DNA of 64,000 bases from positions 1,178,001 through 1,242,000 of the forward strand of contig NZ_CP103288.1 in NCBI RefSeq assembly GCF_024758005.1, in the 5' to 3' direction. This document shows, in pieces, positions 12,251-31,012 of the stretch (position 1 is its first letter; each line of letters starts with the position of its first letter). Source of the stretch: Pseudarthrobacter sp. NS4 (GTDB lineage Bacteria; Actinomycetota; Actinomycetes; Actinomycetales; Micrococcaceae). The notes beneath the pieces were generated by a model, which saw only the letters and a program-made list of their open reading frames with translations, was not told where the DNA came from and searched no databases. The translations under genes and the position numbers were made by a program.

Positions 12251-13600
12251 GTGACAACAACCCTCACCCGCACGCTGAAGCTGCCCTCGCTGGTCCTGTT
12301 CGGGCTGGCGTACCTAACTCCGATCATCGTCCTGGGGATCTTTGGCATCATCGCCGAAACCACCGGCGGCGCCGCGCCCGCCGCGTACCTCGTGGCGCTC
12401 GTGGCCATGCTGTTCACCGCGCACAGCTACGGCCGGATGGCCATCGCCTTCCCCGTGGCCGGCTCCGCCTACACCTACGTCCGCCGCTCCATCGATTCCC
12501 GCGTCGGGTTCCTGGTGGGCTGGGCCGTCCTGCTGGATTACCTCTTCCTGCCCATGGTCATCTGGCTCATCGGCGGCTCCTACCTGAGCGCCCAGTTCCC
12601 CGGCATCCCCATCGGCGTCTGGATCGTGGGCTTCATCCTCATCACCACGCTGCTGAACGTCCTGGGCATCAAGGTGGCGGACAAGGCCAACTACGTGCTG
12701 ATGGCGTTCCAGCTGCTGGTCCTCGTGTTCTTTGTGGCGCTGGCCATCGGCAACGTGGTGTCAGCCAACGGCGCCGGGGCACTGGCCAGCGGGCAGCCGT
12801 TCTTCAATGACACCGCCAGCTTCGCCACCATCTCTGCCGGCGCGGCCATCGCCGCGTACTCGTTCCTGGGGTTCGACGCCGTCACCACCCTCACCGAGGA
12901 AACCATCAACCCGCGCCGGACCGTGCCGCGCGCCATCATGCTCGTGGCGCTGATCGGCGGCGGCATCTTCGTGGTGGTGTCCTATGTGACCCAGCTGGTC
13001 CACCCCGGCGGGGTGTTCGAGGACTCCGCCTCCGCGGCCAGTTCCATCGCGCTGCAGATCGGCGGGCAGCTGTTCGGCGCCGTGTTCCTGGCCGGCCTGG
13101 TGGTGGCGCAGTTCGCCTCCGGCCTCGCCGCGCAGGCCAGTGCGTCCCGCCTGCTGTACGCGATGGGCCGGGACTCCGTGCTGCCCAAGGCGGTCTTCGG
13201 CCGGCTCAGCGAGAAGTTCCACACCCCGGTGGCGAACCTGGTGGTCACCGGGATCGTGGGGCTGATCGCGATCTTCCTGGACGTGGCCACGTCGACGTCG
13301 TTCATCAACTTTGGTGCCTTCACCGCCTTCACGCTGGTGAACGCCTCGGTGGTGTTCCACTATGTGCGCCAGCGCCGGGCCGGGCAGCAGCTGAACCCGA
13401 TGTCCTACGTGGTGATCCCGGTAGTCGGCGCGATCATCTGCGCCTACCTGCTCTCCCGGCTGGACAGCAACGCCATTACGCTGGGGGTGTCCTGGCTCGT
13501 CCTGGGTGTGGTGGTTCTGGCCCTGATCACGCGGGGCTTCAAGGCGGCGCCGCCGGAGATGACCGCCACGGAGAAGGCAACGGTCGAAGCAGCCGCCTGA
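12251..13600 (+). CDS. APC-superfamily permease
   Basis: 449 residues from a GTG start with AAGGAA upstream, 9 bp after the first nitrilase. About 12 hydrophobic segments and the N-terminal LVLFGLAYLTPIIVLGIFGIIAETTGG motif place it in the APC superfamily (amino acid/polyamine/organocation transporters). It probably imports the substrate of the flanking nitrilases. Parts of its 3' third are repeated in broken form at 16326-16470. Confidence 0.88.
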   Translation: MTTTLTRTLKLPSLVLFGLAYLTPIIVLGIFGIIAETTGGAAPAAYLVALVAMLFTAHSYGRMAIAFPVAGSAYTYVRRSIDSRVGFLVGWAVLLDYLFLPMVIWLIGGSYLSAQFPGIPIGVWIVGFILITTLLNVLGIKVADKANYVLMAFQLLVLVFFVALAIGNVVSANGAGALASGQPFFNDTASFATISAGAAIAAYSFLGFDAVTTLTEETINPRRTVPRAIMLVALIGGGIFVVVSYVTQLVHPGGVFEDSASAASSIALQIGGQLFGAVFLAGLVVAQFASGLAAQASASRLLYAMGRDSVLPKAVFGRLSEKFHTPVANLVVTGIVGLIAIFLDVATSTSFINFGAFTAFTLVNASVVFHYVRQRRAGQQLNPMSYVVIPVVGAIICAYLLSRLDSNAITLGVSWLVLGVVVLALITRGFKAAPPEMTATEKATVEAAA

Positions 13601-14427
13601 CGCTGGCAGTTAGTCGTGTGGCCGCCGGGCCGAGGGAAGGAACAGCCGTGAGGATAGCGCTGGGACAGCTGGAGTCGGGCGCCGACATCCGGACCAACCT
13701 CGCCGCGATCGACGGGTTCGCCGCCGAGGCGGCGCGCGACGGCGCCGCGCTGGTCGCCTTCCCCGAGTACGCCAGCTACGAGAAAAAGAAGGTGGACGCG
13801 ACCTTCCCTGAGGTGGCCGAGCCGCTGGACGGTCCGGTCTGCCGGGAGCTCGCTGATATCGCCCGCCGCCAGCGCGTCGCGCTGGTGGCGGGCGTGGTGG
13901 AAACATCAGACGAGCCGGGCAGGGCGTACAACACGCTGGTGGCTTACGGGCCCGACGGCGGTCGGCTGGCTTATTACCGGAAGATCCACCTTTTCGACGC
14001 GCAGGGTTTCGGGGAGTCGACGTTCGTCAAGCCGGGACCGTCCACCGACCCGGTCGTGTTCGAGCACGGGGGAGTGCGGTTCGGGCTCATGACCTGCTAC
14101 GACCTCCGGTTCCCGGAACTGGCCAGGTCGCTGGCCGACGCCGGCGCGCAGGTCCTGCTGGTCTGCTCGTCCTGGGTGCCGGGCGAGCACAAGACGGAGC
14201 AGTGGCTGGCGCTGAACGCGGCGCGGGCCATCGAGAACAGCATCTACGTGGCGGGGGTGTGCCAGGCGCCGCCGGTATCGGTGGGGCGGAGCGTGCTAGT
14301 GGACGCAATGGGGGTTGTTGAGGCCGACCTCGGACTGGAACCGGGCGTGCGCACTGTGGATGTTTCGCTGGAGACGGTGGACCGGGTGCGGGAGTCGTTT
14401 CCTATGTTCCGGCAGCGGCGGCTGTAG
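13478..14427 (+). repeat. Direct repeat, copy A (permease tail plus nitrilase)
   Basis: This stretch and 16348-17296 are co-linear, same-orientation, diverged copies covering the last ~120 bases of the permease and the whole second nitrilase gene. The copies differ by many silent changes, so this is not a recent duplication. Together they bracket the DUF2510 and TIR genes. Confidence 0.85.
13648..14427 (+). CDS. Carbon-nitrogen hydrolase (omega-amidase/Nit-like), copy A
   Basis: 259 residues from the GTG at 13648 (MRIALGQLESGADI), with GAAGGAAC upstream. The triad is E40 (AFPEY), K112 (YRKIHLFDAQGFGE) and C150 (LMTCYDLRFPEL). The CYDLRFPE motif and short length are typical of Nit1/Nit2-like amidases that act on omega-amides or deaminated glutathione. 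It is last in the GntR-controlled operon and plausibly removes ammonia from the product of the first nitrilase or from a transaminated amide. A near-identical paralogue is at 16517-17296. Confidence 0.88.
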   Translation: MRIALGQLESGADIRTNLAAIDGFAAEAARDGAALVAFPEYASYEKKKVDATFPEVAEPLDGPVCRELADIARRQRVALVAGVVETSDEPGRAYNTLVAYGPDGGRLAYYRKIHLFDAQGFGESTFVKPGPSTDPVVFEHGGVRFGLMTCYDLRFPELARSLADAGAQVLLVCSSWVPGEHKTEQWLALNAARAIENSIYVAGVCQAPPVSVGRSVLVDAMGVVEADLGLEPGVRTVDVSLETVDRVRESFPMFRQRRL

Positions 14428-14475
14428 GGCACGAATTTCGCCACCCTTCCAGGAGTCGCCCATTCGGCACGGGTT

Positions 14476-15102
14476 TCAGTTATCCAATCTGGTTTGACCC
14501 GTCCATGACTGCCCGTCCCAGTAGGCCAGAACGCCTTTTGTAGATGTCGGATACCACCCGGCTTGTGATGCCACCTCGGCCCTTGACGGAGGCTGTGGAA
14601 TTGCCACCTCGGCCTTTTCCTTGGCTAGGGCTTCTTGGACCGAACATACATGAATTGTCCATCTTGTTCCGTTCCACCAGCGTGCAGTGCCTTGGCCTTC
14701 GTCGTACCAGCCAGGAGCAGGACCCCTACCAAAGGAATTCACAAGAGATTTGCGAAGCGACGAGGTGACCAGCGAAGAGCTTTGGGGCGGGGGAGCCATA
14801 CGGTTATGCCACTGCTCCGCCACGAATAACTCGGCTTGCTCTTTGGTCATCCGGCCAGCCTGAAACTCAGCGTCTGCCCACTTGCAGAGGTTGCCGTACT
14901 CGTTGGCCAACTGCTGCTGTCGCAAGTGGTTGAGCTGAGCTAACTGCTGCTGGCGGAGCTGGTTGAGCTGAGCAGCAGCAAGTTGTGCCTGAATAGCTCC
15001 CTGGGCTGCTAGTTGTTTCTGAATGTCGAGCTGTTGTCGTGACGTGATGAAGCTTCCGACATTGGCTGCCGTGTTGAGACGGTTGCCTTTCATCTTACCC
15101 AC
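14476..15102 (-). CDS. DUF2510-domain protein with glutamine-rich coiled coil
   Basis: 208 residues from a GTG with GAAGGAAAG upstream. The N-terminal half is Gln/Leu-rich (QLAAAQLNQLRQQQLAQL) and probably coiled coil. It is followed by two copies of the short tryptophan-rich DUF2510 motif: GWYDEGQGTARWWNGTRWT near residues 129-147 and GWYPTSTKGVLAYWDGQSWT near the C-terminus. DUF2510 is an actinobacterial motif usually attached to membrane or envelope proteins; its function is unknown. No membrane segment is visible here. It is divergent from the TIR gene, and both lie between the two nitrilase copies, so they may be one imported unit. A defence role is possible but not shown. Confidence 0.75.
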   Translation of the reverse strand: MGKMKGNRLNTAANVGSFITSRQQLDIQKQLAAQGAIQAQLAAAQLNQLRQQQLAQLNHLRQQQLANEYGNLCKWADAEFQAGRMTKEQAELFVAEQWHNRMAPPPQSSSLVTSSLRKSLVNSFGRGPAPGWYDEGQGTARWWNGTRWTIHVCSVQEALAKEKAEVAIPQPPSRAEVASQAGWYPTSTKGVLAYWDGQSWTGQTRLDN

Positions 15103-15338
15103 GGAACTTTCCTTCTAAGCGGCCTACGAAGAGTTGTCCCAGCCCTTGGCGGAAGATTATCGGAGATGGCTCCTCATGACTAGGTCTAGTTCGAGCACAT
15201 GGTGCTAGCGGTCCTTCTCCCGCCTCGATGGATCGGATACGGAACGGCAAAGGTGGGCTCGAAACGAAGTCAGCCTAGAGGGCCCCTGTTGCTAATGTTG
15301 AGCGAAATTACATTCCTTGCAGGGAGCAGGCGACTGTC

Positions 15339-16253
15339 ATGAAGGTATTTCTTAGTTGGTCCGGAGTCGATACGAAGAGTCATGCGGTGGCCCGAGCTCT
15401 TGACGAGTGGCTCCCCACTGTTCTCAATGCCGTTGACCCTTGGATTAGTTCACGCGGACTGATGGCGGGCTTGCAGTGGAACCAGCAGTTGGATAGAGAG
15501 TTGGACAACACCAACTTTGGCATCATCGTTGTGACTCCTTGGAACCAGCACTCCCAGTGGCTGAATTTTGAGGCGGGTGCTCTTTCGAAACGGGTTGGGG
15601 GTCTGGAGTCACGTGTAGCTCCCCTTCTTGTCGACTTCCCTAATGTGGCGAAGTTGACGGGGCCTTTGTCGAGCTATCAAGTCGTGCTGCCCACCAAAGA
15701 CGGCATTAATCAACTAGTCCTATCGATCAATCAGGCTCTTGGTGAGGAGTCTAGGAAATTCGACGCTTTAGAGCGAGCGTTCGATGTCTGCTGGCCGGCG
15801 CTCGAATCGATGCTCAAAAAAATCGACGAGGACCTTCCGAGCGAGGCCGATCCGGCGGCTGCACCGACGCCCCGGCCGGCAGCGGCAGACGAAACCGACA
15901 TGTTCAGTGAAATTCTTAATGCTATCCGCGGTCTCGCTCGATCCGATGCACGGCTTAGGAATGAAATTCACAAGAGTACAGCTGGCCAGCAGGAACCGAC
16001 GGTTGTTTACGTCCCCGCTGCAACTGCTGCTGGGGCACCGCACGAGTCTTTAGGCTCGAGGACGGCCCGCGCCGTCGAGAGATTGGGATACGCCACGGTG
16101 GCAGTGAGGCGCGGCCCTAGTGGTCGGGTGCGCGTAATTCTTTCTCAGCCGATATCCAAGGAGCAGGAGCAGGAGCTGGCTGAAGGGTTGGACTGGGATG
16201 ACCTCAAGATCAGAAGTCTCCACGTTGAGCCGTTACTGGAGGAAGAAGATTAG
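15339..16253 (+). CDS. TIR-domain protein, probable NADase-type defence effector
   Basis: 304 residues. The first ~150 residues form a TIR fold: MKVFLSWSG opens strand A, NFGIIVVTPWNQHSQWLNFEAGAL contains the glutamate (E78) that is catalytic in NAD-cleaving TIR domains, and VAPLLVDF and YQVVLPT follow. A helical linker (residues 150-215, with a Pro/Ala-rich stretch) leads to a small C-terminal domain of about 60 residues (ARAVERLGYATVAVRRGPSGRVRVILSQPISKEQEQELAEGL) that I do not recognise. TIR proteins of this type act in anti-phage systems such as Thoeris or Argonaute-linked loci, but no ThsA or pAgo partner is adjacent. Lower G+C than its surroundings supports transfer. Confidence 0.8.
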   Translation: MKVFLSWSGVDTKSHAVARALDEWLPTVLNAVDPWISSRGLMAGLQWNQQLDRELDNTNFGIIVVTPWNQHSQWLNFEAGALSKRVGGLESRVAPLLVDFPNVAKLTGPLSSYQVVLPTKDGINQLVLSINQALGEESRKFDALERAFDVCWPALESMLKKIDEDLPSEADPAAAPTPRPAAADETDMFSEILNAIRGLARSDARLRNEIHKSTAGQQEPTVVYVPAATAAGAPHESLGSRTARAVERLGYATVAVRRGPSGRVRVILSQPISKEQEQELAEGLDWDDLKIRSLHVEPLLEEED

Positions 16254-16325
16254 TCTCTCTAGACCACTCTCCAGTGTGGCTTTGCAGGTCAGAACAAGAC
16301 CTAATGACGCTCGAGTCCCCCTTAG

Positions 16326-16470
16326 CTGCTGTACGCGATGGGCCGCAACGCTGGGGGTGTCCTGGTTGGTGCTGGGTATGGTGGTCCTGGCCCTGATCAC
16401 CCCCGGGTTCAAGGCCTCGCCGCCGGAGATAACCGCCACGGAGAAGGCAACGGTCGAGGCCCCCGCCTGA
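16326..16470 (+). pseudogene. Broken copy of the APC permease 3' end with internal deletion
   Basis: The 20 bases at 16326-16345 are identical to permease positions 13151-13170 (encoding LLYAMGR). The next bases jump to the sequence matching 13478 onward (TLGVSWLVLGMVVLALIT... to the stop). About 300 bp of the permease is missing at the junction, and the two parts are in different frames. It is a clear gene remnant. Confidence 0.85.
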
Positions 16471-17296
16471 GCCTGTCAGTCTGTTGTTGGTCCGCGGGGC
16501 CGAGGGAGGAAGAGCCGTGAGGATTGCGCTGGGGCAGCTGGAATCAGGTGCCGACATTCGGGCCAACCTCGCCGCGATCGACCGGTTCACCGCCGAGGCA
16601 GCGCGCGACGGCGCCGCGCTGGTCGCCTTCCCGGAGTACGCCACCTACGAGAAGAAAAAGGTGGACGCCACCTTCCCCGCGGTGGCCGAGCCGCTGGACG
16701 GTCCCGTCTGCCGGGAGCTCGCCGCCATGGCCCGCCGCCACCGCATCGCGCTGGTGGCGGGCGTGGTGGAAACCTCGGAGGAGCCGGGCAGGGCGTACAA
16801 CACGCTGGTGGCCTTCGGGCCCGACGGCGGCCGGCTGGCTTTCTACCGGAAGATCCACCTTTTCGACGCGCAGGGCTTCGGGGAGTCCACGTTCATCAAG
16901 CCGGGCCCGTCCACCGCACCGGTGGTGTTCGAGCACGGGGGAGTGCGGTTCGGGCTGATGACCTGTTACGACCTGCGGTTCCCCGAACTGGGCAGGTCGC
17001 TGGCCGACGCCGGCGCGCAGGTCCTGCTGGTCTGCTCGTCCTGGGTGCCGGGCGAGCATAAAACGGAGCAGTGGCTGGCGCTGAACGCGGCAAGGGCGAT
17101 TGAGAACAGCGTGTACGTGGCGGGGGTGTGCCAGGCGCCGCCGGTGTCGGTGGGGCGGAGCGTGCTCGTGGACCCAATGGGGGTTGTGGAGGCCGACCTT
17201 GGGCTGGAGCCCGGGGTGCGGACGGTGGAGGTGTCGCTGGAGACGGTGGAGCGGGTGCGGGAGTCGTTTCCGATGTTCCGGCAGCGGCGGTTGTAG
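16348..17296 (+). repeat. Direct repeat, copy B (permease tail plus nitrilase)
   Basis: Co-linear with 13478-14427. It contains the remnant permease tail and an intact nitrilase gene, and marks the distal side of the DUF2510/TIR insertion and the left edge of the large defence island. Confidence 0.85.
16517..17296 (+). CDS. Carbon-nitrogen hydrolase (omega-amidase/Nit-like), copy B
   Basis: 259 residues from the GTG at 16517 (GGAGGAAG upstream), closely similar to the protein at 13648-14427, with a small number of conservative changes (for example YASYE to YATYE, VETSD to VETSE). The triad E, K and C is intact (AFPEYATYE, YRKIHLF, MTCYDLRFPEL), so it could be active. It has lost its operon: upstream is only the broken permease remnant and then the TIR gene. 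Whether it is expressed is unclear. It looks like an allele from a related strain kept beside the native gene by recombination. Confidence 0.85.
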   Translation: MRIALGQLESGADIRANLAAIDRFTAEAARDGAALVAFPEYATYEKKKVDATFPAVAEPLDGPVCRELAAMARRHRIALVAGVVETSEEPGRAYNTLVAFGPDGGRLAFYRKIHLFDAQGFGESTFIKPGPSTAPVVFEHGGVRFGLMTCYDLRFPELGRSLADAGAQVLLVCSSWVPGEHKTEQWLALNAARAIENSVYVAGVCQAPPVSVGRSVLVDPMGVVEADLGLEPGVRTVEVSLETVERVRESFPMFRQRRL

Positions 17297-17536
17297 CTTG
17301 GGGTTGGAAACAACATCGCGGATTGACCCAAACAGTTCGAAAGAAACAAGAGCATGCGGCAAACCATCGCCCACCGAATTTGCGGCAGTCGGTCGGAACG
17401 AGCCTGTGAATGTATCCCACATGCACAGCGATCCGAACGGCCCTTTCATTTACGGTGCGGCATTGTTGTTCGGGCGAATCCGGCGGCTACCATCTGACAA
17501 GAGTTGCTGAGAACACTCACGGATTATGGGGGAAAG

Positions 17537-20224
17537 ATGGGGTCAACGGAGTATTCCGACAGTGAAGTCGAGAAGATGGCTGACACGCTCGCCACGCTAG
17601 TGGCTGGCGGAATGACGATGCAGGGTGCTCAGACGGCGTTGTTGTACGCGCCGGAGGGTCTGGTGCATGCGGGGCGTGTCGCCTACGAAAAACGGCTGAA
17701 CCTCATCAAGGAGATACCCGATCCTGGCATTCTGGCCGAAAAGGAGCGGAAAGTCGGATTCTGGTACTCCGGTCCTCGCCAGGACGATGTCATTTGGCCG
17801 ATCCTGAGATCGCGATTGCTACAAGAACTACCGGAAGCGGCAGTCGAGGGGGTAGATTCGGCCTCCTCCAAAGTGATCGGTCTGGGCAGTCCTCCAGGCA
17901 AGGAGTCCATCAGCACCCGAGGACTAGTTCTTGGCTATGTCCAAAGCGGCAAAACGACGAACTTCATGTCGGTGGTGGCGAAAGCGGCGGATGTTGGTTA
18001 CCGACTCATCATCGTCCTCACTGGGACAACCGAAAACCTGCGCACGCAGACTCAGGATAGGCTCAACGATTACTTAATTGAACCGTGCAGTTCAATCTGG
18101 CATCCGCTGACTTCTGTCGACATTGACTTCAGTGTTACCACGCCGGCGGACGCGATTCTAAGCAATCCATCCATGCGTTCTATCGCCGTCGTTAAAAAGA
18201 ATCCCTCCAGGCTTCGGCGTCTTCATAAATGGATCAAAACCGCGTCCGCAACTACTCGTCAGAATTGTCCTATACTCATCATCGACGACGAGGCGGACCA
18301 AGCGTCCATTGATGTAGGGACCAAGCGCCAGTCGACCATCAATAGTCTGATCCGAGACCTCCTTGCGAACCCAAAAGCGGCATACATCGCATATACAGCG
18401 ACGCCATTCGCTAATCTGCTTATCGACCCAAGCGTCGAGCAGGACTTATACCCGCGAGACTTCATTGTGGACCTACCGCGCCCCGCGAACTATTTCGGGG
18501 CGGAGCGGATCTTTGGTCAGTTGGAAGCTGAGAGCCTAGAGGATTCCGTGGATGATGGCTTGGACGTGGTGCGCTTGATTTCCGACACGGAGGTTGACGC
18601 CGTTCGTCCGCCAAGGAACAAGACGCTCTTGGATCAGTGGTCACCTGAAGTACCCGATGGAATGGACGCTGCTATCCGGTGGTTCCTGCTAGCCACCGCC
18701 GCCAGGCGCCTCCGCGCTGGAAAAGTTGCGCATTCTTCAATGCTTATCCATACGTCAATGTTGGCAGGCGCCCATGAGAAGACTGCCGAAGCCGTCGTCG
18801 ATCATTTGGACGGGCTCACGGCCGAGCTGATAAACGGGGGCCAAAGCGCCGTCGACCTGTTTCGGGAACTCTGGGAGGCCGAATCGGCCCGTGTGAAGGC
18901 TGACGCCTTTGGAAATCAGTCGATAGCATTCGACGATCTGATCCCGCAGCTAGTCAAGACAGCCCGGGCAACCAAAGTTATTGTGGATAATTATCAGTCG
19001 AACGACCGTTTGGTTTACGACAAAGAGCATCCGCAGACCGCCATTGTCATCGGCGGAAACACCCTGTCCCGCGGGTTGACTCTTGAAGGCCTCACGTCGA
19101 GCTACTTCGTCCGTGCCTCAACGGCATACGACACTCTGCTTCAAATGGGACGCTGGTTCGGGTACCGCGTGGGCTATGAAGATCTGATCCGAATCTGGAT
19201 GACCTCTGAACTGAAGAGCTGGTTCCTCATGCTGTCCATAGTCGAAGCCGAGATTCGTGAAGAGATCCAGGTCTACGAAGCGGAGGGTAAGACCCCGGCT
19301 GAGCTTCCCGTCAAGATCCGGACACATCCACAGATGTCAGTAACGTCGGCCGCCAAAATGCGTTCCGCTGTCAAAGCGCAGGTGAGTTATTCAGGTCGTC
19401 GGGTCCAGACAATCATGTTCAACGAAGAAGACAAAGACTGGCTGGAAGGCAACATCAAGGCAACCAGAGACTTGTTTGAGCGCCTGATAAGCGAAGGTCA
19501 TCACGAGCATGAACTTAACGCGGCTCGACGTGGATTCCGTGATGTTTCGGCTGACGAGATTCTGGGCTTCTTGGATAGCTATAGGGTTCACGACGCGGCT
19601 AAGTCCATTGATAAAGACGCGATCAGGCGCTACATCGAGAAGGAACGTGCCGAAGGTGATTTGAAGCGCTGGGACGTTGTGCTCATGGAGCCCCTTCACG
19701 GTGACGAGGAGCTCGATCTTGGCCTGGTCGGGAACGTCCGCCTTCTGCGCCGCAAAAAGATGTATATCCCCAGCGAGGACGGTACGGCCAATCTGAAGGC
19801 AGTCGCATCGACGTCTGACCGGGTTGCTGATCTCGATGTCGGATTGGACTTCATCCGTAAGTCACTGAATCTCAAGTCCACCGATAAAATCACTGACCGC
19901 CAGTTGCTCCAATTTCGTCAACTGCGGCAGGCGACGGATCGAAAGGGTCTCTTGTGCATCTATCCGATCGCCAAGAAATCCGACCCTGAGCTAGACGGCT
20001 CCGAGCTGAAGCCAGCCGAGAACCGTAGAGTTCCACTGTTCGCGGCGGCTGATGTCATTGGGCTCTGTTTCATGTTTCCAGATTCACGCAATCCTCGATC
20101 AGTGGTCGATTATGTGGCAGCGAAGGTGGACACCGAATACTTAGAAGCCTTGGAAGAGGAACTGGAGGCAGCCGACAAGTTGGATGAAGCAAAGGCAATC
20201 GAAGACGAGCTGGTGAAAGCATGA
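17537..20224 (+). CDS. Z1-domain ATPase of a MORC-type restriction-like system
   Basis: 895 residues from the ATG at 17537 (GGGGGAA just upstream; a TTG at 17504 is less likely). SF2-like ATPase features are present: Walker A LGYVQSGKTTN (GYVQSGKT at residues 133-140), IIVLTGTTENLRTQTQDRL, the Walker B-like IIDDEADQASID, AYIAYTATPFANLL, the Z1 hallmark GGNTLSRGLTLEGL, and LLQMGRWFGYR. Z1 proteins are known from restriction-modification-like loci that also carry GHKL (MutL/MORC) ATPases. It is first of five tightly packed genes; its stop overlaps the next start (ATGA). It probably provides DNA translocation or remodelling for the complex. Lower G+C than the flanking core genes. Confidence 0.88.
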   Translation: MGSTEYSDSEVEKMADTLATLVAGGMTMQGAQTALLYAPEGLVHAGRVAYEKRLNLIKEIPDPGILAEKERKVGFWYSGPRQDDVIWPILRSRLLQELPEAAVEGVDSASSKVIGLGSPPGKESISTRGLVLGYVQSGKTTNFMSVVAKAADVGYRLIIVLTGTTENLRTQTQDRLNDYLIEPCSSIWHPLTSVDIDFSVTTPADAILSNPSMRSIAVVKKNPSRLRRLHKWIKTASATTRQNCPILIIDDEADQASIDVGTKRQSTINSLIRDLLANPKAAYIAYTATPFANLLIDPSVEQDLYPRDFIVDLPRPANYFGAERIFGQLEAESLEDSVDDGLDVVRLISDTEVDAVRPPRNKTLLDQWSPEVPDGMDAAIRWFLLATAARRLRAGKVAHSSMLIHTSMLAGAHEKTAEAVVDHLDGLTAELINGGQSAVDLFRELWEAESARVKADAFGNQSIAFDDLIPQLVKTARATKVIVDNYQSNDRLVYDKEHPQTAIVIGGNTLSRGLTLEGLTSSYFVRASTAYDTLLQMGRWFGYRVGYEDLIRIWMTSELKSWFLMLSIVEAEIREEIQVYEAEGKTPAELPVKIRTHPQMSVTSAAKMRSAVKAQVSYSGRRVQTIMFNEEDKDWLEGNIKATRDLFERLISEGHHEHELNAARRGFRDVSADEILGFLDSYRVHDAAKSIDKDAIRRYIEKERAEGDLKRWDVVLMEPLHGDEELDLGLVGNVRLLRRKKMYIPSEDGTANLKAVASTSDRVADLDVGLDFIRKSLNLKSTDKITDRQLLQFRQLRQATDRKGLLCIYPIAKKSDPELDGSELKPAENRRVPLFAAADVIGLCFMFPDSRNPRSVVDYVAAKVDTEYLEALEEELEAADKLDEAKAIEDELVKA

Positions 20225-21210
20225 GAGAATCCTCGGCTTCCGTCTTTGAGTACCTGGCTAAGGATGTTTCTGCCGCAGGAAGCTTCCATTCCCGAAAATC
20301 TGGCATATCTTCAGCGGACGGAGAGGTGCTCTGTGCCGTGGACGCGGGCGGTCGGCCATCGTTGCTAGTGCCAGTGGGAGAAGTAAAGAGAGGTCCTCTC
20401 GACTGGCATAGCAAGTCGTTGGCACTGCAGACACTTGAGCTGTCTGTTGATGGATTGAATCAGCCTTTTATGATTCTTCGATGCATCGACCCAATGCTGC
20501 ACCATCAGTTCGGGTTATTGGCGGACGACGTTCTGCATGCCGTGGAACTGGACCCCGAGACTGCACCAAACGCAGTATTGGCGACCCTGGAGCGTTGGAG
20601 AAATCTCTTTGAGGCGGAACGGGGAGCCCTCTTGGGGCCCGCGCAGTTGGCAGGCATAATGGCCGAGCTCTCAGTCCTGCAAGAGTTGGTAAGAACTCAT
20701 GGACCCAAAGCTCTATATGCGTGGCAGGGACCAAACGGCAATCGACATGATTTCGTATTCGCGGACTGCTCCATTGAAGTGAAAGCGACGACCAATCACA
20801 ACAATATGGTGGTAACAATCCATGGTGGCCGCCAATTGTCTGCACCAGATCAGGGGGAGCTCTATCTGCTTGCCCTCCAGCTGGAGCGTACGCCAAATGG
20901 TAAATCTGTTCCCGCCATGGTTGAGGAACTGATTGATTCAGGTTTTCCCCGGCTTGAGCTTCTGACTTTGCTAGGCAGCGCAAACTATTCCGATGGCGAC
21001 TCGTCCGCGTACAAGGAAGTAAAGTTTTCAAAGCTTTCCGAGAGCTCATATCTTATTGACGCCAGATTTCCACGAATTACCGGGGAAACTTTAATTCCGT
21101 CCGGTACCATCGAGCGGCTCAGTAATATTTCTTACTCCATCGACCTTGGGCACATGAAGGAGACCGACCTCAATCTGTCCACGGTTGTCATAAGGAACGC
21201 TGAAGACTGA
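20221..21210 (+). CDS. PD-(D/E)XK nuclease (DUF4420-type)
   Basis: 329 residues. The nuclease core is in the middle: the conserved glutamate of GIMAELSVL (E149), then HDFVFADCSIEVKAT with acidic D177 (or D182), E186 and K188 forming the D...ExK site of the restriction-endonuclease fold. The flanking regions match no other domain I know. It overlaps the Z1 gene by 4 bp and shares one base with the GHKL gene start (TGATG), so the three proteins are translationally coupled. It is the likely DNA-cutting subunit of the system. Confidence 0.87.
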   Translation: MRESSASVFEYLAKDVSAAGSFHSRKSGISSADGEVLCAVDAGGRPSLLVPVGEVKRGPLDWHSKSLALQTLELSVDGLNQPFMILRCIDPMLHHQFGLLADDVLHAVELDPETAPNAVLATLERWRNLFEAERGALLGPAQLAGIMAELSVLQELVRTHGPKALYAWQGPNGNRHDFVFADCSIEVKATTNHNNMVVTIHGGRQLSAPDQGELYLLALQLERTPNGKSVPAMVEELIDSGFPRLELLTLLGSANYSDGDSSAYKEVKFSKLSESSYLIDARFPRITGETLIPSGTIERLSNISYSIDLGHMKETDLNLSTVVIRNAED

Positions 21211-23045
21211 TGTTGTCGCTGTATAGGCAGCAGTACGGTGCCGATGGGGGCTTGGACGCCCGCTCCGCGGACAACGCGATCGGGCGCACTTCGCTCGGGC
21301 TGTGGGATCTTGTTCTCCGAGAGTCTCTTCAGAACAGTTGGGATGCGCGAACAGAAAAGAGCGGGAGCATCTCATTTGCAGTGGATGAGTATGAACTTTC
21401 GGTAGAGCAAACTCGTATTGTGACACGCGATATCTTTGGCGAACTGCCCCCTCATTGCAAGTCTACTGATCTGCACAAACACATTTTTGATCGCCGAATA
21501 CGAGTGTTGGTCATCTCTGATACCGGAACACGCGGCTTGGGAGGCCCCATACGAGCCGATGTTTCCGGAGCGTCGGGCGAACGGCGGGACTTTGTCGATT
21601 TCGTCCGAAACTTGGGTCGTTCCACTGCTAAAGGCCTCGAGGGCGGAACCTATGGGCTGGGAAAAGGCGTGCTGTATCGAGCCAGCCAAGTCGGCCTCTG
21701 CTTGGTCTATTCCCAAGCGCGTTACAACGGCTCGATTGAGCCGCGCCTGATCGGTGTGTCAGGCGGTGATGGCGATTATGACGACGACGGACGTCGGTAC
21801 ACGGGGCGGAACTGGTGGGGGGTACCCGGAGCAGACGGCATTGTAGATCCACTCACTGGTCGCAGCGCCCGGGAGCTTGCAGAGAGTCTGGGCATGCGAA
21901 TTCCGATGGAGCACGACACCGGCACGAGCATCATGGTTGTAGCACCGGACTTCGCTGGGGTCACGAACGGCCTCGATCGAGTGGCAGCGATCGCTGATGC
22001 AGCAATGAAATGGGCGTGGCCACACGCTCTGGATATGGGGAAGGGACCAAATATTCGGTTTGTTTTCACAGCCGACAGCCGTTCGATCCCTAGCCCCGAG
22101 CCGCTAGGCCACCCGGTGTATCGTGAGTTTGCTTCGGCATACATGGAGGGCCGTCAGCGGATCTTGAACCTTGGCTATCAAAGCAATTGGCAGACTACGT
22201 CCACGCCGATTCGAAGCATGCGGCCAAGTCAAAATCTGGGACTCCTAACGCACCGTATCAGCCACGCCCCTGTGACAACTGGATCGGAACTTGAGAACAC
22301 GGTTGCCCTTATGCGGGATCCGAGAATGGTGGTCAAATACTTGCCCGTTTCGGCTCAGCCGAATGGTGTGCCCGTCTTCGGGGTATTCATTTCGGCGCCT
22401 GACATGAACGAAAAGTTCGCCAAATCGGAGCCGGTGACGCACGACGACTGGGTTTATCAGCAAGCCTCCGTGGGAAAGAACGCTCCGAACCCTGTCAGGA
22501 TTGCCATAGACAAAATTCGGGAAACGTTCCGGGTGCTATCGGTCCAAGGCGCAAAAGCCGGCAGTGGTGTCGCCTCCAAGGGGGCCTCAAGGGTGTCAGC
22601 TGCCCTAGGCAGCCTGCTGTCCGGGTTCGCCGGTAGTGGAGCCGAACGCCAAGAAGCGGCAGCGTCTTATGACCTAGGTGCAAGACGCCCGCGTAAGGCG
22701 ACCATACGTCAACTCGGTGAGTCCTCATTGGATGTTATGGACGGCGAGATGGTAGTGAGGTATGGGTTCGCTGTCACCGGAGGGCGCCCTGGAAGTGCTG
22801 TCGCGGTACGTGTGGAGGCTCGCGTCGTGACGGAGTCTGGGGGAAATGAGTCCGCCAGCCCTGCCGACGCAGAAATGCCGCGTTTCCTAGGGTGGTTGTC
22901 CTCAAATGGAACGCTCTCCTCGGAGGACGTTTTGACCATGGCGGTGCCGAGCGAAGATGAAATCACAGCGGTCTTCACCCAGCCTGCCGAAACCGCGATC
23001 CGCGTCACGGCCACTGCAGAGGAGCTTGAAGTTGCGAGGAGTTAG
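21210..23045 (+). CDS. MORC/MutL-like GHKL ATPase
   Basis: 611 residues. The N-terminal ~250 residues carry the GHKL ATP-binding motifs: N-box ESLQNSWDA (38-46), G1 SDTGTRGLGG (103-112) and G2 GGTYGLGKG (145-153). The long C-terminal region includes a probable S5-like transducer and a beta-rich segment of unknown role. ATPases of the MutL/MORC class dimerise on ATP and clamp or compact DNA. In prokaryotes a related group sits in restriction-like operons with Z1, a PD-(D/E)XK nuclease and a DNA methyltransferase, which is the arrangement found here. The next gene starts inside its last codons. Confidence 0.85.
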   Translation: MLSLYRQQYGADGGLDARSADNAIGRTSLGLWDLVLRESLQNSWDARTEKSGSISFAVDEYELSVEQTRIVTRDIFGELPPHCKSTDLHKHIFDRRIRVLVISDTGTRGLGGPIRADVSGASGERRDFVDFVRNLGRSTAKGLEGGTYGLGKGVLYRASQVGLCLVYSQARYNGSIEPRLIGVSGGDGDYDDDGRRYTGRNWWGVPGADGIVDPLTGRSARELAESLGMRIPMEHDTGTSIMVVAPDFAGVTNGLDRVAAIADAAMKWAWPHALDMGKGPNIRFVFTADSRSIPSPEPLGHPVYREFASAYMEGRQRILNLGYQSNWQTTSTPIRSMRPSQNLGLLTHRISHAPVTTGSELENTVALMRDPRMVVKYLPVSAQPNGVPVFGVFISAPDMNEKFAKSEPVTHDDWVYQQASVGKNAPNPVRIAIDKIRETFRVLSVQGAKAGSGVASKGASRVSAALGSLLSGFAGSGAERQEAAASYDLGARRPRKATIRQLGESSLDVMDGEMVVRYGFAVTGGRPGSAVAVRVEARVVTESGGNESASPADAEMPRFLGWLSSNGTLSSEDVLTMAVPSEDEITAVFTQPAETAIRVTATAEELEVARS

Positions 23046-23913
23046 CTTCGGGCACCTGACATTGCCAATAGAAGAGGTATCTGCGCTCTCTTGGGACATT
23101 TCTGTGGGCGAGACGCCTCTGTCTGCGGGGGAGACCTTGGCTGAAGATTGGACATACTATGACGACATCTTCATCAAATGTTCCTTTAACCTGAAGCTAG
23201 AGGATGCCTTGTTGCGGCTGAGACTGCCACAGGACGCTCGTTTAGGAGCGGTCATTATCGCCCGTTCCTCCGGCACGCCTCTAATCACGACGTCGGAGGT
23301 AATCGACGTTCGCGGTACGCGCCAGCAGGTATATCTGACTCTTCCAGGAAATCAGGTTGCCGGTACTCTGGCCCTAGAATTCCAGATATCCGTGTTAGCT
23401 ACCGGGCACGGCGTGGAAAGTTCCATTGCTCCGAAAAGAATAGGCAACACGGTCTTTCGAAGTGACCGCAGAATTGTCCTAGAGGGCACTGCTCCCCGTC
23501 TGCCGATGCTTCCGGTGAGTTTTGCTGAGCATGGAATAGCCAGTTCAAGCGCATCGCTTTGGTGGCTCCGGCTAACAACGCGCGACTTGGCTGCGAGTGC
23601 CTCGGCCGCAATTTGGCTATGGCTGAATGCAGACAACCCATTCATTTCCAAAATGCTCGAGGACCCACAACCCTCGGAGTCGGACGCATGGCTGCGGTTT
23701 CTCCAGGTAGACTTTATGCGCCAACTTCTTCGTGAGGCAATCAGCAGCGACGAGTTGAGCCTGCAAACGGATTATCCGGAGGAATCTCTAGGATACGTAC
23801 TAAGCAGCGTGGTCCGGCTCTTGGGTGAATCCTTGGACCAAGTCCGACAGCGGTACCGCGAAGATCCCGGTCGCGTTGAGGCTGAGCTCCAATCGAAAGT
23901 TGGGGCAAATTAG
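23032..23913 (+). CDS. Uncharacterised protein of the MORC-type cluster
   Basis: 293 residues if translated from the TTG at 23032, chosen because AGAGGAG lies 7 bases upstream; a longer frame back to 22957 runs deep into the GHKL gene. The first ~160 residues look beta-rich (WDISVGETPL, FIKCSFNLKLEDALLRLRLP, RQQVYLTLPGNQVAGTLALEFQISV), perhaps an immunoglobulin-like or beta-sandwich fold. The last ~130 are helical. No catalytic motif is visible. It overlaps the GHKL gene by 14 bp and is followed after one base by the next gene, so it is an integral member of the operon. It could be a structural, targeting or DNA-recognition subunit. Confidence 0.75.
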   Translation: MRGVSFGHLTLPIEEVSALSWDISVGETPLSAGETLAEDWTYYDDIFIKCSFNLKLEDALLRLRLPQDARLGAVIIARSSGTPLITTSEVIDVRGTRQQVYLTLPGNQVAGTLALEFQISVLATGHGVESSIAPKRIGNTVFRSDRRIVLEGTAPRLPMLPVSFAEHGIASSSASLWWLRLTTRDLAASASAAIWLWLNADNPFISKMLEDPQPSESDAWLRFLQVDFMRQLLREAISSDELSLQTDYPEESLGYVLSSVVRLLGESLDQVRQRYREDPGRVEAELQSKVGAN

Positions 23914-23914
23914 A

Positions 23915-24739
23915 GTGGCAGATATTCAAACATTGCTGTGCTATCCACGTATGCCCCTCTACCATGCAGCTCAATCGTGGGAGATGCTTCGCGGGCAGAG
24001 TCTGCGAGAGATTGGTGCTGCTATTGACCTTCGCACTGTTCATGCTAATTACTACCCACTTGCCCGACAACGTGCCGGTTCCGCGGAGTTACTTGGCTTG
24101 CGCGGGAAGATTCTCGGCATTGCCGAGGAATTTGGATTCCCCTCGACTGTGAGCAGCAAAGTGCTCGTGGAGTTCGATCGATCCGTCGGGCCAGAGCTTC
24201 ATGCTCAGATGACTATCATGCCTGCCGACGCATCATCGATAGATGTTTGGAATTTCATTAACACTGCAGTTGTACCAGACGTTGTCCTCTGGCGGTATGG
24301 ACGCTTCCATACTCAAACGAAGAAATGGAACATTTCTGAGGATCGCCTGTTCGACATGACCAGGACCACCATCGGCCGGTTGTGGTGGAGGGTTCACCTC
24401 CTTGGTGCCGAACTAGCGCGCAGGCTGGGTGAAGATGAGGTGGTCAACCTGCTGGAGAAGCCTCGGATCGGCGGCTACCCGCCACTCTCCCGTGCTATGG
24501 GTGCACGACTGTTGACGTTAGCCTCAGAATCGAACACGGGGAGACGGATGGAACTATTCCGAGATGCCACAAAACGTCTTCTCCGCAAGATGGCAGTCCA
24601 GTCCGTGTTCGTGATGACGCCTGAGCAGATTGACGAGTTCGTCACCTTGTTATTCCTGGAGTCCGCGGCCGCGTTGGACATACCCGTGGTGGAAGCCCCC
24701 CATGGAAATGCTCGCGCAGGAACGGACTCTTGCTACTGA
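23915..24739 (+). CDS. Uncharacterised protein (possibly DUF6339-type), last gene of the MORC-type operon
   Basis: 274 residues from the GTG at 23915, one base after the previous stop. It is mostly helical with conserved-looking segments: LREIGAAIDLRTVHANYYPLARQR, VLVEFDRSVGPELHAQMTIMPADASSIDVWNFINTAVVPDVVLWRYG, and a C-terminal helical bundle (FRDATKRLLRKMAVQSVFVMTPEQIDEFVTLLF). From memory, proteins like this are annotated DUF6339 and recur in such loci; I could not check that. No nuclease or ATPase motif is seen. It ends 27 bp from the convergent methyltransferase gene. Confidence 0.75.
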   Translation: MADIQTLLCYPRMPLYHAAQSWEMLRGQSLREIGAAIDLRTVHANYYPLARQRAGSAELLGLRGKILGIAEEFGFPSTVSSKVLVEFDRSVGPELHAQMTIMPADASSIDVWNFINTAVVPDVVLWRYGRFHTQTKKWNISEDRLFDMTRTTIGRLWWRVHLLGAELARRLGEDEVVNLLEKPRIGGYPPLSRAMGARLLTLASESNTGRRMELFRDATKRLLRKMAVQSVFVMTPEQIDEFVTLLFLESAAALDIPVVEAPHGNARAGTDSCY

Positions 24740-24766
24740 CGGGCCACCCGTCTAGATGGCAATGGC

Positions 24767-26248
24767 CTACTCTTCAAGGGAACGAAGCATGTCGGCTACT
24801 ACGTTTCCGATTTGCCTAGAGAGCAAAGGCGGGACAGCGTTTCCCACTTGGTGAAATTGCTGTGTCCTGGAGCCTTCGAAGAAGTAGTTGTCGGGGAAGG
24901 ACTGGAGGCGGGCTGCTTCGCGTACGGTGAGGCTTCGTGCCTGCTTAGGGTCCGGGTGAATATAATAGTGGCCATCTTTTGCGATGTGGGAGACCACCGT
25001 AGTGGCCGGAGCATCCCATATTTGAACTCGGAACCGGTCGGTAAATGGCGTGCTTGCCTTGCCAACATTGCTGTGCTCGGGATGTAACGACGTTGGGAGA
25101 TCGGTGTACTTCGGACTTTTGCCCAAGTGCTCTGCTAATTCTGCCATCACTCTATATCGGACCAAGTCTGACACCATGTGCATGCGTGGTTGGTGTTGGA
25201 TCGGCGCGCTAAGCCGTTCCTCATGAAGCCAAGCCTCGTACTCATCAACTGCGAGTGTGCCGGCCTTAACTGGTTCGGGCTTGGATTCCACATCCCTCAG
25301 CCGCACCTCAACCAAAGCCTCCTTCTGCACGGCCGGCCAATCGCGATCAATGGTAGGCTGCCGCTTCGACATCCTCGCTTGCAGACCCGGCATCGTTTGA
25401 ATTGCCGCTCGTACCGTTACTGGCCCGTCTGCTTTGTTTAGAACTCGTCTAGGAAGACTCCCGGTCACGTCACTGCGGACTCCGAGTAGAATCACCCGAT
25501 GCCGTTTCTGGGGTACGCCGTAATTTTCTGATCGGATAATAAAGTCCGAGGGCTCCAGATCTTGGGGGGCCGCATCAACGACTAGTGAGCGGATCTCGTA
25601 GCTGACACCGCTGGGTAAGCGCTTAAGGTCACTCAGAATTGTCTGGAACATGCTGCTATCGCCAACCTTCGATGACAACAGGCCCTTGACATTCTCCATT
25701 ACGAAAATACTGGGCATAAACTTACTCAAAATGTGCAGGTACTCGCGGTAAAGGAAATGCTTGTGGTCGGCAGCGAACAACTCGTCTCCGGTCCTTCGCG
25801 ACCGCCCAGCGAGGGAATATGCTTGACACGGCGGTCCGCCGATAAGCGCCCAGTGTCCTCGCTCTTTCTCCGGTCCAAGTTGCTGCTCGATGAAGCTGTC
25901 CACAGCCGGGCGGTTGCGCTCTCCTAGTTCGACTTGGTACACGTGAGCTTTTGCAGTTTCATAAGCTCTTTTGAAATCGCCTGTGAGGACAGACTGCCAC
26001 GTTCTTTTTCCTTCGATGTAATCAAAGTAAGGCCGCAAGTCGCCCTCGGAGCGGACGAGCTCCCGGTAGGTTGCGCGCAAGCGCAGCGTCTGGCAAGCAA
26101 ACGTGTCCATCTCGAACGACGCCAGTGTCTGGAACGCGAAGTCGCCCCGCTCGTCTCTTACGCTTGAGAACCCCTCATTCAGGCCTCCTGGCCCGGCGAA
26201 GAGATCGATAACTGGAAACACTTCCACCCCTTGATGCTTGACACTCAA
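24767..26248 (-). CDS. DNA (cytosine-5) methyltransferase
   Basis: 493 residues from a TTG (GTG at 26227 or 26221 is an alternative). All C5-methyltransferase motifs are present in order: I (VIDLFAGPGGLNEGFSS), IV with the catalytic cysteine (IGGPPCQAYSLAGRSR), VI (FVMENVKGLL), VIII (QKRHRVILLGVR), then a target-recognition region of about 180 residues, and IX-X (ARLQSFPDNYFF, QFHQVGNAVPPLLSRQIG). It is transcribed towards the Z1/GHKL operon, with only 27 bp between the stops. It is the most likely modification enzyme protecting host DNA from that system. A separate promoter would let protection be expressed before restriction. The target sequence cannot be predicted here. Confidence 0.93.
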   Translation of the reverse strand: MSVKHQGVEVFPVIDLFAGPGGLNEGFSSVRDERGDFAFQTLASFEMDTFACQTLRLRATYRELVRSEGDLRPYFDYIEGKRTWQSVLTGDFKRAYETAKAHVYQVELGERNRPAVDSFIEQQLGPEKERGHWALIGGPPCQAYSLAGRSRRTGDELFAADHKHFLYREYLHILSKFMPSIFVMENVKGLLSSKVGDSSMFQTILSDLKRLPSGVSYEIRSLVVDAAPQDLEPSDFIIRSENYGVPQKRHRVILLGVRSDVTGSLPRRVLNKADGPVTVRAAIQTMPGLQARMSKRQPTIDRDWPAVQKEALVEVRLRDVESKPEPVKAGTLAVDEYEAWLHEERLSAPIQHQPRMHMVSDLVRYRVMAELAEHLGKSPKYTDLPTSLHPEHSNVGKASTPFTDRFRVQIWDAPATTVVSHIAKDGHYYIHPDPKQARSLTVREAARLQSFPDNYFFEGSRTQQFHQVGNAVPPLLSRQIGNVVADMLRSLEE

Positions 26249-26949
26249 AGATACCAGGTGCCGCCGACAAATCTGTTGCGGGCGCGATTAAGTACCGCCG
26301 TAGGATGAGCCTGGAGTACGCCGTTCTCGGTCTGTGGAGCGACGAACGCAGGAATACTTCGTGGGCTACGTTTTCCGGATGGAGGCCACGGTCGGAGCCG
26401 GGCATCCCCTGTGCCCCTTGGATTCGACGGTTTTTCGGTAGCTTCGGGCCGTGTCCCTCGCGTAGTTTTGCGCAGGCCGAGAGGTAGTCGATGAATGAAG
26501 GCGGGATCAAGCCCAGATAACTTAGCGGTCTATCCCATCGCTTCATGCTCTGCGGGACTGCGGTAGAGCATCGCTCGAAGCTTTGGGCTATTGCCCCGGC
26601 GCAACGAAGGGTAGGGGACAATGCACTCAAGGTTTCGTCAGCTGACCTATCGGGGCATCAGCTCCCCGAGTCGACGCCACACTGAACGAAGGTCGCGTTC
26701 CTGAACCTGGGAAGCTTCTTGCTGAGCGAGAAATCATTGATAGGCAGCCCAATGCCCTTACCGGCACTGAGGGCTGCGCAGGTGAAAATCGAATCCCCCC
26801 GAACCGCAGAAGGCCGTATTTGTAATGCGTGCTTGCCAGTACGCTTCGGTAAGTGGCCACGGACTTGGGTAACGGCAAAACATTCAGCGATGATGGTAAG
26901 GCGACCTCATAGAAAGTCGAGGTAAAACCTGTGGAGGCTGGAGAAGCAC
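26249..26949. other. 700-bp intergenic region between the methyltransferase and the OLD nuclease
   Basis: No gene can be supported. Several medium open frames exist on the minus strand (for example 26175-26630), but none has a recognisable domain or a convincing start, and they overlap one another. The region must hold the divergent promoters of the methyltransferase and the Gabija-like operon. It may be decayed sequence at the junction between two defence modules. Confidence 0.5.
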
Positions 26950-29136
26950 ATGCATATCAAGAGTTTCCGGATTGGGAACTTCAGGCGCCTGAAGAACGTC
27001 AGGGTGGACCTCGAACCCGATCGCACGATCTTCGTGGGTGCGAATAACAGCGGAAAGACGTCGGCGACCCACGTGCTCCAAAAATTTCTCGGACAGCAAT
27101 CGCGAACTCCTTTTCAAATATACGACTTCTCGGCGGATTGCTGGGAATCTTTCGATTCCTTTGATCCGAGTTTGGGAGACACGAAGGTTGAGCTGCCGCA
27201 GATCTCCCTCGATCTCTGGTTCAACGTCGACGATGACAACTTGCACCGCGTGCTGGATCTCTTGCCGAGCTTGGACTGGGACGGAGAACCTGTAGGCGTT
27301 CGGATGGTTTATGCACCCCGCGAGGGCGAGAAGCTCGTCGCTAACTACTTAGAGGCACGTGCCACGGCCGAATCAACGTCGAACGGTAATGAAAGCTCTT
27401 ATTCGCCTTGGCCGCAGAGTATGTTCGAGTATCTGACCAAGCGTCTGCAACAGGAATACGAAATTAAATACTTCGTACTTGATGCTAAACGGTGCACGGA
27501 GGATCTCGTTCCCGAAGACGGCTATGTGCCATTTTTCTTGGGCACGAGTAGTAATGGTGCCTCGAGGGTGATCGAATCAATCATCAGGATCGATTTCTTA
27601 AACGCGCAGCGGCATCTATCAGACACCGAATCGCCCGGAAGAAGTGAAGAACTTTCGAAGCGGTTGAGTCGGTTCTACGAGCGGAACCTGCAAAAACTCG
27701 AAGGTGATCTGGATGCCTTGGGAGCGATCGCCGACTCTGAAGCGCGGCTAAACGCGCATTTTGCTGAAGTATTCGGGGATACTCTCGATCGGCTTGGAGA
27801 AGTCGGCTACCCCGGCGTCGCCAACCCAGGGCTGGTTGTCAAGGCATCGTTCAACGCTCATGGCATTCTAAATACGAGTGCGAAAGTCCATTACGAACTA
27901 CCGACGGTGGCCGAAGGCGGAACCGCGGTCCGGCATACGCTGCCGGATCAGTATAATGGCCTAGGCTTCAAGAACCTTATTTATATGGTGGTTGAGGTTC
28001 TCGATTTTCATCAGGCTTGGTCAGCTTCAGCCGGGGACCGTCCGCCAATCCATCTGATTGTTATAGAGGAGCCGGAAGCTCACCTTCACGCACAGCTGCA
28101 GCAGGTGTTCATCCGAAAAATTTTAGAAATCTTGCCTGAACCGGAAGTAGCTTTTCACACCCAGCTAGTGGTGACTACACACTCTCCTCACATCATCTAC
28201 GAGAGCAACTTCAAACCTATTCGGTATTTCTGCCGAGCCACTTCGCTTGACGGATTGCATTTAAGTGACGTTAGGAATTTGTCTACGTTTTATCGAGAAG
28301 AAGAAGTCGCGACGCGAGAGTTCTTGCAGCAGTACATCAAGCTCACCCACTGCGACTTGTTTTTTGCCGATGCCGCCGTATTGGTTGAGGGCAATGTTGA
28401 GAGATTGTTATTACCACTCGTCATCGAGCGCTTCGTGCCAGGCCTGCGGTCGTGCCACCTGACCATCCTCGAAGTTGGAGGAGCATTCGCGTACAGGTTC
28501 GAGAGTCTCTTAGGTTTCCTTGGCCTTCCGACGCTAGTCATTACTGACTTGGACAGCGTCAATGCGCCCTCCGCGGCCCGGGTTGATGATGAGGAAGCAA
28601 CGGCTGGGTCATCTTGTGAGGTGGACACGGTAGGCGCAGTGACGTCAAACCAGACCCTGAAGCAATGGCTGCCGAAGATCGACAGCATCGAGGATTTGTT
28701 AGCTGCTGGAAGTGATGCGAAAGCGCCGGCCACCGAAGATGGATTGCCTGGGCTTGTCCGAGTGGCGTATCAGACTCTAGAAACGATTAGCTGGCAGGGT
28801 AAGACCGAGCAGCGGGCAGGGCGGACCCTGGAAGAAGCGTTCGCGCTACGGAATCTTAACTGGACGCAGAGCGCTGACGGCAAGCAGTTGGGCCTGAAGA
28901 TTCCCAAAGCGACTGATCTTTCGATCAAAGAACTGCATGACAGGCTATTTACCCGGGTCAAGAATTTCGACAAGACGAGCTTCGCTCTCGGCGTCATAGC
29001 CACTGCAAACCCAACTTGGGAATCTCCTATGTACATTGTGGAGGGGCTGGAATGGTTGCAGGAGAAACTCGAAGTTGTGGCTCCTGTGGAGGCGCGGGGT
29101 CTAACGACGCAGTCTGGTGGTCGAGGTGACATCTAG
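26950..29136 (+). CDS. gajA: OLD-family ATP-dependent nuclease (GajA-like, Gabija)
   Basis: 728 residues from the ATG at 26950 (TGGAGAAG upstream). The ABC-type ATPase half has Walker A GANNSGKT (30-37), signature YNGLGFKN (335-342), Walker B LIVIEEPEAH (369-378) and the H-loop histidine H411 in TTHSPHI. The TOPRIM nuclease half has E480 (AVLVEGNVERLLLPLV) and the DLD motif (533-535 in VITDLDS). This is the class 2 OLD layout, paired with a UvrD-like helicase gene that starts inside its 3' end. That pairing is the Gabija anti-phage system, in which the nuclease cuts DNA when nucleotides are depleted. The protein is longer than the ~580-residue founding GajA, mainly by a C-terminal extension of about 150 residues. 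Confidence 0.87.
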   Translation: MHIKSFRIGNFRRLKNVRVDLEPDRTIFVGANNSGKTSATHVLQKFLGQQSRTPFQIYDFSADCWESFDSFDPSLGDTKVELPQISLDLWFNVDDDNLHRVLDLLPSLDWDGEPVGVRMVYAPREGEKLVANYLEARATAESTSNGNESSYSPWPQSMFEYLTKRLQQEYEIKYFVLDAKRCTEDLVPEDGYVPFFLGTSSNGASRVIESIIRIDFLNAQRHLSDTESPGRSEELSKRLSRFYERNLQKLEGDLDALGAIADSEARLNAHFAEVFGDTLDRLGEVGYPGVANPGLVVKASFNAHGILNTSAKVHYELPTVAEGGTAVRHTLPDQYNGLGFKNLIYMVVEVLDFHQAWSASAGDRPPIHLIVIEEPEAHLHAQLQQVFIRKILEILPEPEVAFHTQLVVTTHSPHIIYESNFKPIRYFCRATSLDGLHLSDVRNLSTFYREEEVATREFLQQYIKLTHCDLFFADAAVLVEGNVERLLLPLVIERFVPGLRSCHLTILEVGGAFAYRFESLLGFLGLPTLVITDLDSVNAPSAARVDDEEATAGSSCEVDTVGAVTSNQTLKQWLPKIDSIEDLLAAGSDAKAPATEDGLPGLVRVAYQTLETISWQGKTEQRAGRTLEEAFALRNLNWTQSADGKQLGLKIPKATDLSIKELHDRLFTRVKNFDKTSFALGVIATANPTWESPMYIVEGLEWLQEKLEVVAPVEARGLTTQSGGRGDI

Positions 29137-31012
29137 AACAGACTCTCCAGACACCGATGCTGATCGTGAGCTAAGGGAGATTCTCGACGGTGACCGTTTG
29201 ACTGGTTTTACGATGGTGGCAGGTGCAGGTTCAGGTAAGACAACGTCACTGGTTAAGGCTCTGGCCCACGTTACGGCGACCCGCGGGCCGTCGCTACGCG
29301 CGAAGACCCAGAGGGTTGCGTGCATAACCTACACAGAGGTAGCGGCCCGAGAGATTCATGACGACATCGGGAATGACTCCCTTGCGTCAGTTTCGACGAT
29401 TCATAGCTTCCTTTGGTCGCTAGTCAAGCCATTTCAGAAGGACATCAGTACCTGGGTTTCAGCGAACATTGAAAAACAGATTGCAGACCTGCTTCTAAAG
29501 CAGGAACAATACACATCTCGAACCCGCTCGGCTACGAAGGATAAGGACGCGTCGGATCTAGCCAAACGTCGACAGCAACAGGCCGCCGTTGGTGGTGTGA
29601 TCAGATGGACATATGGGACTGGCAGTGACTATGCGCGGGGCGTTCTCGGTCATGCAGATATCCTCAAAATGGTTCCGCAAATGATCCTCACCCAAAACCT
29701 ATTGGCTCGGCTGGTGGCACGTCAGTTTCCATTCATATTCGTAGACGAGAGTCAAGACACTTTCCCGGAAGTCGTGGAGTGCTTGAAGCGCGTTTGGGCA
29801 TTAGCCGACGGAGAAATGTGTCTGGGATTCTTTGGAGACCCGATGCAGCAGATCTACCAGCAGGGAGTGGTATCCATATCCCTCGAACTTGGATGGCGCA
29901 ACATCGACAAGCCCGAGAACTTTCGATCGTCTCGGCGAGTCTTGACTTGCATTAACGCGGTCCGCTCGGAAGGCGACACGCTCCAACAAGTAACTGGACT
30001 TACAGCGACGCAGTCCGAGGGCGAGGCATTTTGCTTTGTACTTCCGACCGATGATCATAGAAGCGAGAATCTGGAGCGGGTGCGGACTTGGCTGGATGAA
30101 CATAGCTCTTCAGGAAACTGGACACGGGCAGCCCACGAAGGCGGCTCGCAAGTGCTTATGATCGTGCACCGTATGGCTGCTAGGCGGCTGGGTTTTGATG
30201 CACTTTACTCCGCATTCAACGACAATAAAGCCGATAGCCTTGGGGATGCCTTTAACGAAGGTTTGGCGTGGCCATTAGCGCCCTTCCGCGACGTAATCCT
30301 TCCGCTTTGTTCAGCTGACGAGCCCAGCTCACCGGAGGTGCTGGCCGTTTTAAAGGAGAACAGCCCTCTAATCAAGAGCGGACGTGCCTCACGGGAAGTC
30401 CGAGCCGCGCTGACTGCCGGTTACTCCGCAGTCACGGAGCTAAGGGAACTTGCAGACGGCGCCGAAAAAGCGGCGACGCTCGGTGATATATTGAAGTTTT
30501 CGGCTGATCGGCAGCTCCTAGAACTCGACCCGCGTATGGCGGCGTACCTATATCCGCTCAGTGAGTTCCAGGATGTCGTTCTGGATGAGAAAACTACCAG
30601 CGTTCTAAACGCTATGGCGCGCTGTACCTTTTCTGAGCTTGAGGGCTACTACAAGTACGTGAATCAAGAATCTCCATACTCTACACAGCATGGAACAAAA
30701 GGTTCCGAGTTCGAGCGAGTTGTAGTCGTGCTCGACGACGACGAGGGGACATATCCGCTCTATTCCTATGACAAATTCCTCGGGCTAAGACAACCGTCGA
30801 CAAGGGACCTTGAGAATCAGGCCCAAGGGAAGGACTCCGCGGTTGAACGGACACGGCGCTTGTTCTACGTGTGCGTCTCGCGGGCAAAAGAGTCTCTGGC
30901 GATTGTGCTTTTTGCTGACGACGTATCACAGGCTGTGAATGCAGTGAGCCAATCGTCCATTGGTGAGCACGTCGATATCTTAACGGATACCGACTTGATG
31001 ACTAGACCCTAA
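29117..31012 (+). CDS. gajB: UvrD/Rep-type SF1 helicase (GajB-like, Gabija)
   Basis: 631 residues, GTG start at 29117 overlapping the nuclease gene by 20 bp. SF1A motifs: Walker A AGAGSGKT (35-42), Ia ACITYTEVAA, II FVDESQDT, III LGFFGDPMQQIY, IV NFRSSRRV, V THGTKGSEF-like QHGTKGSEFERVVVVLDDDEG, VI RRLFYVCVSRAKESLAIVLF. In Gabija the helicase associates with the OLD nuclease and senses or unwinds DNA ends. It is longer than the founding GajB (~490 residues). The coupled overlap and shared low G+C show one unit with the gene before it. Confidence 0.87.
   Translation: MVEVTSRTDSPDTDADRELREILDGDRLTGFTMVAGAGSGKTTSLVKALAHVTATRGPSLRAKTQRVACITYTEVAAREIHDDIGNDSLASVSTIHSFLWSLVKPFQKDISTWVSANIEKQIADLLLKQEQYTSRTRSATKDKDASDLAKRRQQQAAVGGVIRWTYGTGSDYARGVLGHADILKMVPQMILTQNLLARLVARQFPFIFVDESQDTFPEVVECLKRVWALADGEMCLGFFGDPMQQIYQQGVVSISLELGWRNIDKPENFRSSRRVLTCINAVRSEGDTLQQVTGLTATQSEGEAFCFVLPTDDHRSENLERVRTWLDEHSSSGNWTRAAHEGGSQVLMIVHRMAARRLGFDALYSAFNDNKADSLGDAFNEGLAWPLAPFRDVILPLCSADEPSSPEVLAVLKENSPLIKSGRASREVRAALTAGYSAVTELRELADGAEKAATLGDILKFSADRQLLELDPRMAAYLYPLSEFQDVVLDEKTTSVLNAMARCTFSELEGYYKYVNQESPYSTQHGTKGSEFERVVVVLDDDEGTYPLYSYDKFLGLRQPSTRDLENQAQGKDSAVERTRRLFYVCVSRAKESLAIVLFADDVSQAVNAVSQSSIGEHVDILTDTDLMTRP

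Follow-up and report, generated by a model that had tools for sequence, protein, structure and literature searches.

A discrete six-gene cassette

In a 64,000-nucleotide stretch of the genome of the soil bacterium Pseudarthrobacter sp. NS4 (NZ_CP103288.1 positions 1,178,001 to 1,242,000, forward strand; hereafter the window), we identified six genes that form a discrete cassette and that, judged from their predicted products, look like an anti-phage DNA-restriction system (Table 1). All six reading frames are open; successive genes of the five-gene core overlap by 4, 1 and 14 base pairs (bp) and are then separated by a 1-bp gap, and the convergent methyltransferase gene lies 27 bp from the core. 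This arrangement had been given in a preliminary description of the same DNA, and both its gene boundaries and its assignments of a Z1 ATPase, a PD-(D/E)XK nuclease, a GHKL ATPase and a C5-methyltransferase proved correct. Its view that the overlaps prove that the five proteins act as one complex was too strong, since overlaps show translational coupling; co-divergence of the five is the better evidence.

When the cassette was aligned at the DNA level with the Arthrobacter loci L051-L054, similarity began at 17458-17488 and stopped at 26258-26271. Twelve flanking proteins, including TIR and Gabija proteins, had no match in the sequence retrieved for L051-L056 and L113, and a repeat of this search with the window as a positive control again gave no match at E 1e-3. 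The six genes thus form a discrete unit that sits in different surroundings. The genes also co-occur in other genomes, the outcome on which the preliminary description had staked its proposal.

Table 1. Genes of the cassette, in window coordinates.
Gene	Coordinates	Strand	Remarks
Z1 ATPase	17537..20224	+	first of five coupled genes
DUF4420 PD-(D/E)XK nuclease	20221..21210	+	329 amino acids
paraMORC2-type GHKL ATPase	21210..23045	+	611 amino acids
G6	23032..23913	+	293 amino acids; beta-sandwich, helical C-terminal domain; without Pfam match
G7	23915..24739	+	274 amino acids; all-alpha, DUF6339-like
C5-cytosine methyltransferase	24767..26248	-	catalytic cysteine present

Core proteins and an exchanged methyltransferase

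The nuclease matched Pfam DUF4420 (E 1.5e-46) and corresponds to the NRE of Iyer, Abhiman and Aravind 2008 (PMC2292703). Its residues D177, E186 and K188 are each at least 85% conserved, and the D..ExK pattern was found in 73 of 75 DUF4420 nuclease sequences. The GHKL protein had no match in the Pfam scan; an alignment of 13 sequences revealed an N-box and the motifs DxGTxGLxGP and G[T/S]YGxGK, with the motif residues invariant throughout, and the corresponding N-box, G1 and G2 patterns occur in 79, 73 and 76 of 81 GHKL sequences. An ExxxH motif in the S5 region, described as a paraMORC2 motif in Iyer 2008, has its Glu 407 and His 411 invariant in 13/13 aligned sequences, and a stricter form of the pattern was present in 70/81. 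The MORC-specific GhXhhpXXRhl motif was found by pattern in 0/81, so that MORC proper was rejected. Of the earlier label "MutL/MORC-like GHKL", the GHKL assignment thus stands and MORC proper does not: by its motifs, the protein is classed as paraMORC2. The AlphaFold2 model of G7 has a predicted local distance difference test score of 92.8; its DUF6339 match is under the cut-off in the window (E 4.5e-4) and over it in L101, L107, L074 and L120.

The methyltransferase matched Pfam DNA_methylase (1.4e-45), contains motifs I, IV (GGPPCQ), VI, VIII, IX and X, and probably starts at a GTG at 26227. Taking the best methyltransferase pair per locus, core and methyltransferase were discordant in 97 of 259 close pairs; this count replaces one of 109/259 based on the nearest methyltransferase only, which was an overcount. 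The second methyltransferase of L101 is 76% identical to that of L100. Across loci, then, the methyltransferase has diverged and been replaced independently of the core genes. The preliminary description had spoken of the system's "own" methyltransferase, which holds for the Arthrobacter cassette but not across loci, and the enzyme's travelling independently of the Z1 operon, which it had named as evidence against itself, is borne out in half.

In 13 loci (11 of the set of 80 related loci, plus L034 and L037; the others are L083, L094, L097, L103, L105, L110, L111, L120, L121, L122 and L124), G7 runs on into a C5-methyltransferase domain. The motif IV cysteine of this domain is replaced in all 13, by GG[L/M]PR in 12 and AGLPR in L094, while the remaining methyltransferase motifs are still recognisable. 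The fused domains make up a family of catalytically dead C5-methyltransferases. Among 100 stand-alone methyltransferases, duplicate contigs included, the cysteine is kept in 96, and each of the four loci with a cysteine-less copy (L049, L050, L096 and L123) has a second, cysteine-bearing methyltransferase. A further GGPPCQ methyltransferase, in some cases cut by a contig end, is present at 12 of the 13 fusion loci; L097 itself stops just past the fusion. G7 is elsewhere extended by a region matching DUF3320, over the cut-off in L107 and under it in L101. From these fusions and extensions, G7 looks like the point at which domains that read DNA or its methylation are attached. A stricter model, in which the dead domain is a reader matched to the active enzyme, is broken by L111, where the active methyltransferase is of the other class and the dead domain follows the core; this counts against a simple reader. 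The two fused domains that were scanned, those of L094 and L120, had PADLOC Druantia DruM models as their best match.

Surroundings and occurrence

A Gabija pair adjoins the cassette (26950-31012; PADLOC GajA, E 9e-249, and GajB, 2e-203). On the other side, a TIR-domain gene (15339-16253; PADLOC TIR-TM, 8.5e-53) lies between two carbon-nitrogen hydrolase gene copies (13478-17296) whose proteins are 91-93% identical, and a pair of direct repeats (13478-13918 and 16348-16787) shares 84-88% identity. Two tandem 33-nucleotide repeats (14906-14971) fall within a minus-strand open reading frame with a Q/L-rich stretch. G+C content is lower across approximately 17.3 to 31.4 kb than in most of the surroundings. 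The interval from a permease gene to a DeoR-type gene (13600-31652) is variable within the genus: the two are 18 kb apart here and about 34, 38, 46, 60, 68, 81 and 93 kb apart in seven other genomes of the genus that carry both on one contig. The cassette itself is patchy: of 394 genomes from the class, 15 have it. Vsr is present at 59/80 related loci and was not found in the window slice or in L051-L056. A second GHKL gene lies nearby in 25/80 loci, for example L065:2770-4083, the product of which matches MzaB (4.7e-64). This match suggests that MZA-like systems share these islands.

Known systems and alternative readings

Iyer 2008 had already predicted this kind of cassette, as the third of its operon types, and the link to that paper made in the preliminary description was right. 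This type combines a superfamily II helicase bearing DThhQXuRhFG with a novel restriction endonuclease and a GHKL protein, often with Dcm and Vsr. The cassette shares the DThhQXuRhFG helicase, the restriction endonuclease-fold ExK nuclease, the paraMORC2-type ExxxH motif and the cytosine methylase, and its relatives have the Vsr. In the available text of that paper G6 and G7 are not described as such, the Figure 2 legend giving only uncharacterised X and Z domains, nor are methyltransferase exchange, dead-methyltransferase fusions or a link to DISARM. The preliminary description missed a second precedent, the six-gene predicted "Type I" system of Miller, Stern and Burstein 2022 (PMC9523054), which is most likely the same kind; it has three specific additional genes, probably GHKL, G6 and G7, and an association with DNA repair endonucleases. 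Most of the related loci have Vsr; the window itself lacks it. In the literature searched we found no experiment on this kind and, in line with the preliminary description, no mechanism.

Membership of MZA was rejected, as the scores for MzaC and MzaD were far too low: 387.7 bits where NCBIfam requires 1500, and 75.3 bits where it requires 420. The cassette GHKL protein had no PADLOC match to MzaB, and G6 and G7 are a further difference. MzaE is the AIPR protein of MZA, and no AIPR match was found among the nine cassette and neighbouring proteins scanned, all six of the cassette included. The PADLOC candidate PDC-M33 has, like the cassette, a GHKL protein (A) and a DUF6339-type protein (C); A is matched in the window (PDC-M33A, 5e-11) and C is not, while the relatives L101 and L045 do match C. 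In the PDC-M33-like loci examined, the protein in the middle resembles G6 (profile probability 89%). The best match of the methyltransferase is the DISARM protein DrmMII (PADLOC, 1e-104), and a trio of cassette genes adjoins DrmA/DrmB in other loci; no profile match to DrmA helicase or DrmB was found in window 10-36 kb.

An ordinary sequence-specific, ATP-dependent restriction-modification system of the CglI/NgoAVII type, in which one subunit of the core, be it G6, G7 or the DUF4420 nuclease, would recognise the methyltransferase's site and cut nearby if it is unmethylated, is a possibility we consider unlikely, though it leads the alternatives. CglI and NgoAVII have a PLD nuclease with a B3 DNA-binding domain, of which Pfam found none among the six proteins, whereas the cassette has a PD-(D/E)XK nuclease and three extra subunits. 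We give less credence to an abortive system in which phage DNA is sensed, the DUF4420 nuclease degrades host DNA and the cell dies, with the methyltransferase as a brake: cell killing is not demanded by the anatomy, and the AIPR scan is against it. Very improbable is a role argued from DNA compaction and the upkeep of methylated DNA. Eukaryotic MORC proteins are reported to compact DNA, and the Vsr neighbours suggest such upkeep, but the patchy occurrence, low G+C content, variable region, adjoining Gabija and TIR genes and conserved nuclease motif all speak against it. For the predicted restriction system, sequence comparison indicates that the five-gene core stays together while its putative self-marking methyltransferase is swapped.
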